64,000 nucleotides of DNA from contig WFTQ01000103.1 of NCBI GenBank assembly GCA_015485355.1, positions 1 through 64,000 on the forward strand. Reading direction: 5' to 3'. Positions 21,366-24,724 of the stretch are shown here, piece by piece. Every line of letters starts with the position of its first letter. The first letter of the stretch is position 1. A program made the position numbers and the translations under genes. The DNA comes from a bacterium (GTDB lineage: Bacteria > Calditrichota > Calditrichia > RBG-13-44-9 > J042). The notes under the pieces were generated by a model. It had not been told where the DNA came from. It worked only from the letters and a program-made list of their open reading frames with translations, and searched no databases.

Positions 21366-23210
21366 TTGAGAATATCACCCATGGTGTATGCGCTCTTTCT
21401 GCTTTTGGTGGCTTACCAACTCACCTTCTCCCAACAGTCCGAAGAAACCCTGTTTCAAGAAGGGCTGAAGGCTTACCGGAATGAAGATTACGCCCGGGCA
21501 CAAACCCTGTTTTTCAAACAATTGCAATCCCATCCCCGCGGAAGATTGGTCACCGCGGGGAAACTGATGCTGGCCAAGTCCTATTACAAGCTGGGGGACT
21601 ATAATGCGGTATTGATTTTGTGCCGGGACTTTTTCAAACGCTATCCCGCCAGTCAATACCGGGATGATATGCATCATTTACTGGGCAATACCTATTTTCG
21701 GCAGGGGGACTACCTGCAGGCGGTGAAGGAATGGTACTGGGTGGTGGCGCATAGCCCGGATGTACGGTTGAAGCGGCTGGCCGCAAGGTATTTGTATCAC
21801 ACGGCCGATCGATACCTAAGCGAAGCGGAGTTGCAAAAGTTGCAAGATCAATATCGCTCCCCCATCTTCCATGGGATGTTGCTGGTTTTGGAAGCCCGGC
21901 GCCTGCTCCGGCAGGGCCGGCAGACGCAGGCGGTGGAAATGCTCACAGAATTTATTCAGACTCAACCCAATCATATTTATGCGGAGCAGGCGCGTTTGCT
22001 GTTACGGCTTGCCGACCAGCGTCCCGCCGGGAAGGCCGCCATTGTATACCTGAAGTCGGTGTTCCCGGATGAAGAACCGGTGAGCGAAGCCATCGAATTG
22101 GGCATGCGCTTTGCCCTGGGGGAATTCGCAGACCGCCGGAAGGTGAACGGCCTGGATTTGATTTCTCTTCCGGTGAGCGAAAGCGTCCTCAATACCCTCC
22201 AGACGGTGCAGCAGGGGATGGGCACGACCAATGCCTTGGCTCTGGTGGGGCCGCTGGATGCGGATCAGTGTGCCGCCGTGGCACTCTTATCCCACTACGA
22301 GAAATTGCCCTACATCATACCCACCAGTGCCGCGGTGGGCTTTACCGAGATCAGCCAATATGCTTTTCAACTCAATCCCGATGCCGAGACCAAAGGCCGC
22401 TTTTTGGGTAACTATGCCACCCGGGAAATGGGACTCAAGACCCTGGCGGTGCTGGCACCGGTAACCGAATACGGTGAGCATTTTGTCCATAGTTTTATTG
22501 AGGCCGTGCAGGCCAACAATGCCGAAGTCGTTACCACCCAGTGGTATTACGAAGATACCCAGGATTTTACCCGGCAGTTCCGGGCCATTCGCAAGAAAGG
22601 ATTTTATGTATTTTACCGGGATTCCATTCGGCAGGTGGATTCTACCCTGAGTGAAGAAGACATCCAGAAAGGATTCCGGGGATGGCTGGATGAAAAGTTT
22701 TCCACTAAAACGTTCGGGGCCAAGGTCGATTCAACTCAAATTCCTTCCACGGGAATCGATGGCCTGCTGATCGTGACTTCGCCCGATCTGGTTCCCATTA
22801 TTGCTTCGCAGTTTGCTTTCCATAACATTCAATGCACCCTTCTGGGCAACGAGGGGTGGAATAATCTGGAAGCCCTTCAAAAAAACAAGGATTACCTCCC
22901 CGATCTGGTATTCATCAGCGCCGCCTATTACGATCCCCGCTCCTGGGAATACCGCCGGTTTGTCACGCGCTTCCGGGCCCGCATGAAAACCACTCCGGAG
23001 CTGTTTCATATGTTGGGATACGATCTAATGTCCTGGCTGCTGGAAAAATATCGTCCCAATATGAACCGGGAGGAATTTACGTCTCGCTTAAACCATTCGG
23101 GCAAATTCCAGGGCATCGTGGAGAGCATCGAATTTCGGGAAAAACCCAGAATTAACAGCCACCTTTTTGTGCTGCGCTTTAAACTGGGCCAGTTGCTGAA
23201 GGTGGAATAA
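21366..23210 (+). CDS. TPR plus type-1 periplasmic-binding-fold protein
   Basis: A 614-residue exported protein: signal peptide (about 1-22, ending TFSQQ), TPR-type helical repeats (about 25-195; units such as EEDYARAQTLFFKQL-like and DYLQAVKEWYWVV), then a Leu/Ile/Val-binding-protein-like bilobed domain (about 205-605) with LALVGPLDADQCAAVALLS, YIIPTSAAV, and VFISAAYYD. This order resembles LpoA/LppC-type penicillin-binding-protein activators and other TPR-PBP fusions. There is no lipobox cysteine, so it is probably soluble in the periplasm. Start is TTG 21366, supported by GAGGAGGT; ATG 21381 is an alternative. The satD gene begins 7 bp after its stop, so the two are likely co-transcribed. 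Ligand or cell-wall role unknown. Confidence 0.8.
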   Translation: MRISPMVYALFLLLVAYQLTFSQQSEETLFQEGLKAYRNEDYARAQTLFFKQLQSHPRGRLVTAGKLMLAKSYYKLGDYNAVLILCRDFFKRYPASQYRDDMHHLLGNTYFRQGDYLQAVKEWYWVVAHSPDVRLKRLAARYLYHTADRYLSEAELQKLQDQYRSPIFHGMLLVLEARRLLRQGRQTQAVEMLTEFIQTQPNHIYAEQARLLLRLADQRPAGKAAIVYLKSVFPDEEPVSEAIELGMRFALGEFADRRKVNGLDLISLPVSESVLNTLQTVQQGMGTTNALALVGPLDADQCAAVALLSHYEKLPYIIPTSAAVGFTEISQYAFQLNPDAETKGRFLGNYATREMGLKTLAVLAPVTEYGEHFVHSFIEAVQANNAEVVTTQWYYEDTQDFTRQFRAIRKKGFYVFYRDSIRQVDSTLSEEDIQKGFRGWLDEKFSTKTFGAKVDSTQIPSTGIDGLLIVTSPDLVPIIASQFAFHNIQCTLLGNEGWNNLEALQKNKDYLPDLVFISAAYYDPRSWEYRRFVTRFRARMKTTPELFHMLGYDLMSWLLEKYRPNMNREEFTSRLNHSGKFQGIVESIEFREKPRINSHLFVLRFKLGQLLKVE

Positions 23211-23217
23211 CCGCCCG

Positions 23218-23877
23218 ATGAAGACCCTGCGTTTACACAGCTTTTATCTGGCCATCATCGGCGATATCGTCCGTTCCCGGGATATTCCCGACCGGAAAGC
23301 GTTTCAACAACAATTTCATCGCGTGATGGACCAAGTCAATCGTCGGTTTCAGTCGGATATCCTTTCGCCCTTCACGGTCACGCTGGGAGATGAGTTCCAG
23401 GCCTTGCTGACGCGGGCGGATTCCCTGTTCACCATCCAGCAGTTTTTGCGGAAGCATCTGGCGCCTCAGCAGCTGGTATTCGGTGTAGGCATTGGTGAGA
23501 TCGAGACCGACATCAATCGTGAAACCTCCATCGGCATGGATGGCCCCTGTTTCCGGCTGGCCCGGGAACAAGTGGAGGCGGCCAAAACGAAACCTCCCCG
23601 AATGCGATTTGCCGTTCAGGGAGTAGACAGCGAGGTGTGCAATACCCTCATGCGGCATATCGAACGGCTGGAAGACAGGCGGACCCCCAGACAACGGGAA
23701 ATTATCCAGGTTTATCAGGAAGTCCGGCATCAACAGAAAGCGGCCGCTCGAATGGGAATCAGCCAGGCGGCCGTGAGTCAGGCTCTGGAGAGTGCCGGCT
23801 ATTTCTTACTAGAGGAGAGCCGAATGGCCCTGACGAAATTTATTGGGCAATTTTTGCGACCCATCGCAGCGATGTAA
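23218..23877 (+). CDS. satD: SatD-family protein with C-terminal helix-turn-helix
   Basis: A 219-residue SatD-family protein. The N-terminal domain (about 10-145) reads AIIGDIVRSRDIPDR, then TVTLGDEFQALL, then VFGVGIGEIET, then GMDGPCFRLAREQVEAAK. This order of an acidic strand, a GDEF-type hairpin and a GIG strand recalls the palm fold of GGDEF and nucleotide cyclases. The C-terminal part (about 160-205) is a helix-turn-helix: TPRQREIIQVY, then QKAAARMGISQAAVSQALES. The family is named after an acid-tolerance locus of Streptococcus; its biochemical activity is not known to me. Immediately downstream are two perfect dyads and a DUF3307 membrane gene. This suggests SatD binds the dyads and controls its partner (inference). 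Confidence 0.85.
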   Translation: MKTLRLHSFYLAIIGDIVRSRDIPDRKAFQQQFHRVMDQVNRRFQSDILSPFTVTLGDEFQALLTRADSLFTIQQFLRKHLAPQQLVFGVGIGEIETDINRETSIGMDGPCFRLAREQVEAAKTKPPRMRFAVQGVDSEVCNTLMRHIERLEDRRTPRQREIIQVYQEVRHQQKAAARMGISQAAVSQALESAGYFLLEESRMALTKFIGQFLRPIAAM

Positions 23878-23880
23878 ACG

Positions 23881-23930
23881 CTTATATTCGTACAATATAA
23901 GTAAAAATGCTTATATTGTATGCGTATAAG
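23881..23930. promoter_or_regulatory. Two tandem CTTATA-N9-TATAAG dyads (candidate SatD operators)
   Basis: Two 21-bp inverted repeats share the same layout: CTTATA at 23881-23886 with TATAAG at 23896-23901, and CTTATA at 23910-23915 with TATAAG at 23925-23930. Each has a 9-bp centre and their starts are 29 bp apart. In the first, the arms extend to CTTATATT/AATATAAG. A further half-site CTTATA lies at 23932-23937. They fill the gap between satD and the DUF3307 gene and overlap its likely promoter. Confidence 0.8.
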
Positions 23931-23968
23931 TCTTATAGTTTATAAATGGTGCAAAACCCGGGACGATT

Positions 23969-24724
23969 ATGGCTTGCCAGAATTATCATATCCTTCCCTT
24001 GAGCATCTTAGCCTATTCAGTGGCGTATTGGTGGGTGGTGTTTCCCGGGAAAACTCTCCCATCCCGTTGCTGGAAGGAAGCCCTGGGGGGAGCACTCCGG
24101 TTTTTACTTCCTCACCTTGTGTTGGTGGTGGGGATTCCTTATCCATTGGCCTGGCTGTATATTGGGATGGTAACGGGGGCGGTCTGGGTGCTGTTACGTT
24201 ACACGACTTGGTTCAATCTTCCGGAAAGTTTGGGTGGTTATACCGGCATTCATCTGGCGGCCGTGGGGCATGTGGCCGCCCTGACCTACCTTTTCAGCAA
24301 AGCTCCCGATTTTTGGGCCCTGGGATGGTGGCGTTCCAGTGTGGGGCTGCTGATGAATGACCATCAATTCTTTCAGGGGGTATGGTATGCCATTGGATTT
24401 ATCTGGATGGTCTGGGGAGGTACGGTTTTTGTCCGTTCGGTATTGGCCCCTTTTTCGGTGAATCGTTCCGGGGGCATCTCCGGAGAAGAGCTGCAGCGCG
24501 GCAAAGTCATCGGAAATCTGGAGAGGTTGCTGATTTACCTGCTGATTCAACTGGACATGCTGGGCCTCATCACCCTGACGGTGGGATTAAAAGCCGTGGC
24601 CCGTTTCAAAAAACTGGAGGAAAGGGACTTTGCAGAATATTTTCTGATCGGCACCCTTTCCAGTTTACTGTTTGCCGTCAGTGTCGCGGTGCTGATAAAA
24701 TACCTGGTGCGTTACGGGGGATGA
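23969..24724 (+). CDS. DUF3307-like membrane protein, SatD partner
   Basis: A 251-residue membrane protein with about seven hydrophobic segments. The C-terminal third is the best recognised part: GKVIGNLERLLIYLLIQL, then GLKAVARFKKLEERDFAEYF and LIGTLSSLL, as in DUF3307 proteins, which are commonly encoded beside satD. The N-terminal half has diverged: it starts at MACQNYHILPLSILAY and the usual acidic residues of early DUF3307 helices are not obvious. The ribosome-binding site is poor, so the start is uncertain. Function unknown. The paired operators directly upstream suggest tight control, possibly by SatD. Confidence 0.68.
   Translation: MACQNYHILPLSILAYSVAYWWVVFPGKTLPSRCWKEALGGALRFLLPHLVLVVGIPYPLAWLYIGMVTGAVWVLLRYTTWFNLPESLGGYTGIHLAAVGHVAALTYLFSKAPDFWALGWWRSSVGLLMNDHQFFQGVWYAIGFIWMVWGGTVFVRSVLAPFSVNRSGGISGEELQRGKVIGNLERLLIYLLIQLDMLGLITLTVGLKAVARFKKLEERDFAEYFLIGTLSSLLFAVSVAVLIKYLVRYGG

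Follow-up and report, generated by a model that had tools for sequence, protein, structure and literature searches.

Genes and sites at the satD locus

The window analysed here is a stretch of 64,000 nucleotides from a bacterium of the Calditrichota (contig WFTQ01000103.1, positions 1 to 64,000). It contains a satD gene, preceded by a gene with TPR and Peripla_BP_6 domains and followed by a spacer with palindromic sites and a gene for a multi-helix membrane protein (Table 1). The SatD family takes its name from the sat operon of Streptococcus mutans. In the literature, mainly the freely accessible part of it, SatD appeared solely as a secretion/acid-tolerance name, and no publication was found that assigns SatD a fold, a DNA target or a recognition code. 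Pfam identified the SatD open reading frame, which has a C-terminal helix-turn-helix (HTH), as a full-length match to PF16264 (129 bits, cut-off 29), and all 72 SatD relatives likewise exceeded the gathering score of this family.

Table 1. Position of genes, codons and putative operator sites at the satD locus of the window.
Feature	Position	Strand	Basis or remark
TPR + Peripla_BP_6 gene	21366-23210		ends 7 bp before satD
satD: predicted palm (class III cyclase-like) domain, residues ~10-135, and C-terminal HTH	23218..23877	+	PF16264 2.5e-37; AF2; Foldseek
D16 codon, invariant first metal-site-like aspartate, strand b1	23263..23265	+	72 SatD sequences; model
D58 codon in GDEFQ, invariant second metal-site-like aspartate, b2-b3 hairpin	23389..23391	+	72 SatD sequences; model
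Predicted recognition helix, residues 183-192	23764..23793	+	DSSP of model; covariation
Two CTTATA-N9-TATAAG dyads, inter-operator register of the array	23881..23930	.	motif search
Putative operator O1, surviving right half CTTATA	23881..23886	.	shuffles, relatives
Putative operator O2, TATAAG-N8-CTTATA	23896..23915	.	register from relatives
Putative operator O3, TATAAG-N8-TTTATA, one mismatch between halves	23925..23944	.	comparison with relatives
Membrane partner, 251 aa, multi-helix, without DUF3307 match	23969..24724	+	ORF, Pfam
Conserved C-terminal core of partner, GkvIGnLERlL...KavARF...FAEYFLIGTLsS	24470..24721	+	partner alignment

An array of putative operators accompanies satD

The spacer contains two perfect dyads, CTTATA-N9-TATAAG, at 23881-23901 and 23910-23930, spaced 29 bp. 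Markov shuffling of the spacer (23878-23968) never yielded two identical perfect 6-6 dyads in 20,000 rounds, and exact copies were found nowhere in the 3.44-Mb genome apart from the satD locus. These dyads, already noted in the preliminary description, are therefore real and not a product of chance. They also belong to a conserved array, but their register is offset from the unit kept in relatives. There, the repeat unit reads ATAAG-N7/8-CTTAT, and each array holds one more complete copy of it than in the dyad register (three perfect copies versus two in the relative L041). Since relatives keep complete copies in this other register, CTTATA-N9-TATAAG was rejected as the binding unit. The unit is a palindrome of 17-18 bp, with the form TATAAG-N8-CTTATA in the window, and by this comparison the dyads are the gaps between three putative operators, O1, O2 and O3. 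The left half of O1 lies inside the 3' end of satD and is degenerate; in L041 O1 is complete. A search for a wider regulon returned five ATAAG-N6-8-CTTAT sites in the genome, fewer than the 11 of a reversed control pattern, and repeated sites were present at the satD locus only.

The comparison was extended to about 100 genomes, with named SatD loci drawn from 84,980 species representatives and supplemented by loci of related genomes. At most satD loci an array of usually 2-4 palindromes of 17-18 bp, repeated every 28-29 bp, lies either upstream of satD or in the spacer that separates it from the membrane gene. Such arrays occur in many bacterial phyla and on haloarchaeal plasmids, where gene pair and arrays are both present. 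A survey of other satD loci for dyad-type sites, as proposed at the outset, thus returned them across phyla, though in the offset register. The half-sites follow NNAA(C/G)N in most groups, being ATAAG in three Calditrichota families (f1, f4, f5), ATAAC in a fourth (f6) and TCAACC, TAAACC, TGAACC or TTAACC outside these families. A generic scan, assuming neither motif nor spacing, gave p<0.05 for 50 of 86 upstream regions (40 shuffles each). When each locus was searched with its own consensus and spacing was left free, 131 of 152 adjacent pairs of sites were spaced by 28 or 29 bp; this count is not fully independent, because the sites behind the consensus had been selected within a range of 27-30 bp, whereas the generic scan is independent. 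The flanks displayed no peak at 28-29 bp, and their site density was 30-fold lower than that of the array region. No array was found in five hold-out loci (two of them truncated), at the plasmid locus L264 or at any of 34 loci of clade-B paralogues, which have no membrane partner.

The gene order in the window family (WIN, L041, L042, L046) is TPR/Peripla_BP gene, satD, array, membrane gene. In other Calditrichota, the array precedes satD, and satD and the membrane gene abut. Since satD follows the TPR/Peripla_BP gene after 7 bp and the array is located downstream of satD, the window array would control the membrane gene only. Of the self-regulation initially ascribed to SatD, the tie between array and membrane gene stands, but the window array sits 3' of satD and the window SatD is not strictly self-regulated. 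Judging from the loci compared, the array goes along with the promoter from which the membrane gene is transcribed, wherever that promoter lies. The satD gene of the window family seems to have been captured by another operon, that of the TPR/Peripla_BP_6 gene.

The window genome encodes a second SatD paralogue, of clade B (G000:C109:6540-7064; L002/L058), with the motif MDGPAFHRAN. This gene lies downstream of one with a weak V4R-like match (E 0.044) and has neither membrane partner nor array. Clade B, common in the class, may have another job. The satD of genome G027 (L040/L096) is interrupted by an in-frame TGA within its conserved GD motif (FTII*DMIGS), reflecting either a sequencing error or a decayed gene.

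The membrane partner is defined by a conserved C-terminal core

The gene next to satD had been described as encoding a DUF3307 membrane protein. Pfam gave no PF11750 match at E<=1 for 23969-24724, which rules out this label for the window partner, and only six of 63 homologous partners matched the domain (e.g. Syntrophomonas, 4.3e-21). In our literature search, DUF3307 was mentioned in a single phage paper. The partners have in common a C-terminal core some 80 residues long, in which G..IG..ER, K, R, EY, G and S are invariant, and the window partner also conforms to it (G000:C103:24479-24709, 1.6e-29). A membrane gene is found beside satD, downstream of it, in 71 of 80 named loci. Conversely, 43 of 385 genomes contain the core and 40 of these 43 also have SatD (co-occurrence p 3e-38). 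Of the three genomes seemingly without SatD, two turned out to have a divergent SatD-like gene immediately upstream of the core gene, and in the third the region is interrupted by a contig end. The partner core thus occurs almost only beside SatD. The AlphaFold2 model of the partner had no structural match in the PDB by Foldseek. The partners in L092, L250, L252 and L258 comprise about 110-140 aa and are barely longer than the C-terminal core. Because some partners are little more than the core, the N-terminal part, DUF3307 or other helices, appears to be an optional addition.

SatD is predicted to combine a palm-like fold with the HTH

An AlphaFold2 model of SatD, built with 72 sequences, reached a pLDDT of 94.7. 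It contains strand b1 (residues 10-17, with D16), a hairpin (48-64, with G57-D58-E59-F60) and strand b4 (86-93), and so reproduces the order of acidic strand, GDEF hairpin and GIG strand proposed from the sequence. Foldseek ranked class III adenylyl cyclases first (prob 1.00, E ~1e-4, TM to target 0.5-0.57), followed by further matches to mCpol OptS, GGDEF and GTP cyclohydrolase III. Structure prediction and Foldseek together support the suspected palm/cyclase-like fold, and we predict a class III cyclase-like palm for the N-terminal domain. D16, D58, E59, M107-D108-G109 and the motif MDG..F..AR are invariant in the 72 SatD sequences. By analogy with the cyclases, D16 and D58 are inferred to be metal-site residues.

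Sequence profiles gave a different picture. SatD had no Pfam match to the cyclase profile PF00211 or to the GGDEF diguanylate cyclase profile PF00990, and hhalign comparisons with Calditrichota cyclase and GGDEF alignments were not significant (E 0.022 and probability 2% for GGDEF). The hairpin reads LGDEFQ and not the GG(D/E)EF signature. The SatD motif G..FHxAR resembles the cyclase motif G..VNxAxR, but the Asn is absent and the Arg is displaced by one residue; at the position of the ribose-binding Asn SatD usually has His, also Tyr or Arg, with Arg in the window. Homology to the cyclase or GGDEF families was rejected on account of the hhalign result, and for the same reason we claim fold similarity and not family membership. 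Sensing of a nucleotide by the palm is plausible.

Operator bases co-vary with the recognition helix

The window SatD carries A184, S187 and Q188 at the co-varying positions of the recognition helix. Among all SatD residues, mutual information with the operator bases peaks at the pairing of residue 188 and base -4 (z 17.6); next come residue 187 (bases -8 and -7) and residue 184 (base -7), and all three residues lie within helix 183-192. Residues outside the HTH reach z ~8.8 from shared ancestry alone, and only the excess above this value is informative. Lys or Arg at 188 is combined with C at -4 in 57 of 57 cases and Gln188 with G at -4 in 14 of 16; Arg184 is accompanied by G at -7 in 8 of 8. 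Because the site finder gave C and G the same weight at -4, the covariation was not built in. On a tree calculated from the palm domain alone, residue 188 changes six times and base -4 five times, with no pair going in opposite directions; restricted to well-supported branches, this tree leaves two pairs per trait, which puts significance out of reach. A contrast within Vreelandella is provided by L121, with helix ERSVYK and sites TGAACC, and L136, with EQSVYK and TAAACC.

Arrays recurred among hold-out loci found by Pfam HMM or tblastn outside the training set, and the code was followed there too. Among unambiguous calls, Lys or Arg predicted C in 9 of 9 loci (L243, L245, L248, L252, L254, L094, L261, L262, L263) and Gln, Asp or Glu predicted G in 3 of 3 (L251, L258, L247). 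L054, L253, L255, L256 and L259/L260 were ambiguous, doubtful or mixed, and L244 repeats a training locus. Exceptions to the code are L168 (Gln188 with C), L098 and the mixed sites of L109 and L259/L260. Since the array bases co-vary with the recognition helix above all other residues, SatD very probably binds the array sites.

L107 and L109 encode near-identical Chloroflexota SatD proteins that differ in residue 188 (Lys/Gln) and in the C/G content at -4, possibly a specificity switch in progress. The haloarchaeal L259 and L260 and the distant bacterial L247 agree in the helix motif STVSE and resemble each other in their TTCG-type sites, which suggests transfer of a regulator-operator unit or convergence.

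SatD as a putative repressor of the membrane partner

Scored with a sigma-70 consensus, which is crude and in its own right similar to the AT-rich sites, 52 of 57 loci have a promoter-like sequence overlapping the operators, against an expectation of 31. At 44 of the 57 loci the predicted -10 element itself overlaps an operator, and the median distance from the centre of the last operator to the downstream satD start is 31 bp. That SatD regulates its membrane partner, as first suggested for the window, is strongly supported by the array accompanying the satD/membrane operon across phyla and by the recognition helix. As far as sequence comparison can tell, SatD with its array is a real and widely conserved regulatory system, and SatD a palm-plus-HTH one-component regulator.

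We propose that SatD acts as a one-component transcription factor, the HTH of which would bind the phased operator array at the promoter of the membrane partner and usually also at its own. Bound SatD would repress by covering the promoter. Binding of a (metal-)nucleotide or related ligand to the palm domain would alter DNA binding, and the membrane protein would thereby be made only under a certain condition. Repression of the partner is likely in view of the overlap between operators and promoters, while the ligand response is deduced just from the fold and the invariant residues. To the reading of SatD as a palm-fold, ligand-responsive repressor of one dedicated membrane-partner gene, acting via the array, we assign a probability of about 0.8. 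In Streptococcus pyogenes satD is essential by transposon mutagenesis in strains carrying it, yet accessory, being present in 178 of 249 genomes and absent from about 29% (PMC11323703). Such a pattern would fit a repressor of a harmful partner, and the model offers a possible reason for it; a polar effect or an unrelated cause is possible as well.

A different role of SatD would follow if the palm catalysed the synthesis of a nucleotide that gates or silences the membrane protein, in the manner of an OptS/OptE-like guard or a second-messenger pair, with DNA binding secondary and autoregulatory. The residues and motif invariant in 72 sequences (D16, D58, E59, MDG..F..AR), the Foldseek match to the Panoptes OptS mCpol (TMt 0.62), the obligate pairing of satD with a membrane protein and the essential yet accessory gene of S. 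pyogenes are in line with this view. It is nevertheless unlikely, given the missing profile match to cyclases or GGDEF, the replacement of the ribose Asn mostly by His, also by Tyr or, as in the window, Arg, a partner model without structural match and a window pair without PADLOC match or any phage or defence context seen. A bifunctional guard, in which the palm makes or senses a nucleotide that restrains a potentially harmful partner and the HTH reports it via the array, we consider rather unlikely; if true, bacteria and archaea would have a two-gene system for nucleotide surveillance that differs from both CBASS and Panoptes. SatD was absent from viral contigs, as searched at the level of close relatives, and from phage records, and viral structures gave no Foldseek match at E<=0.001, so a viral origin or carriage by phages was discarded. 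Assignment to a known defence system was dropped as well, there being no noteworthy PADLOC match.

The remaining explanations concern the array. SatD might bind it and activate the partner instead of repressing it; the overlap of -10 and operator (44/57) and the median distance of 31 bp to satD are repressor-like positions and make activation improbable. A different regulator might occupy the array and control the operon, with SatD acting elsewhere, as binding by SatD is deduced from sequence comparison. This is highly improbable, because the operator bases track the recognition-helix residues best and change together with them on the tree, and because repeated sites in the window genome are confined to the satD locus. 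Dyads are abundant in spacers and this spacer is AT-rich, as would suit a terminator, an attachment site or a chance feature, but a result of 0 in 20,000 shuffles and a constant period of 28-29 bp over unrelated sequences, from bacteria to haloarchaea, leave such an origin with practically no credence.

Annotated copies of both genes occur in many bacteria and on haloarchaeal plasmids. For this gene pair, the repressor model supplies a predicted operator, a testable residue-to-base code, one dedicated target gene and a predicted fold for the sensor.

Comparison with known systems

Class III adenylyl and guanylyl cyclases (Ma1120, Rv1900c CHD) are the best Foldseek matches of SatD, and the two invariant aspartates of SatD are located in the strand and the hairpin that correspond to theirs. 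Unlike these enzymes, SatD has a C-terminal HTH, no PF00211 or hhalign match and no conserved ribose Asn. Regulators of the PucR/CdaR type with a GGDEF-like palm (Rv2242, BAD_0249; PF17853) share with SatD the order of palm-like domain and HTH, and SatD shows Foldseek matches to them and a weak Pfam GGDEF_2 match below the cut-off (E 0.096). They nonetheless form a different family, full-length Foldseek alignments giving an rmsd >13 A and a TM of ~0.3, and we know of no dedicated operator array for them. In Panoptes, the palm-fold protein OptS and the membrane protein OptE form a two-gene unit (PMC12657218). SatD is likewise predicted to have a palm fold (palm TMt up to 0.62) and is paired with a membrane protein, but its partner does not match OptE by fold or PADLOC. 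Moreover, OptS is a minimal palm without HTH, whereas SatD carries an HTH that would read the operator array.
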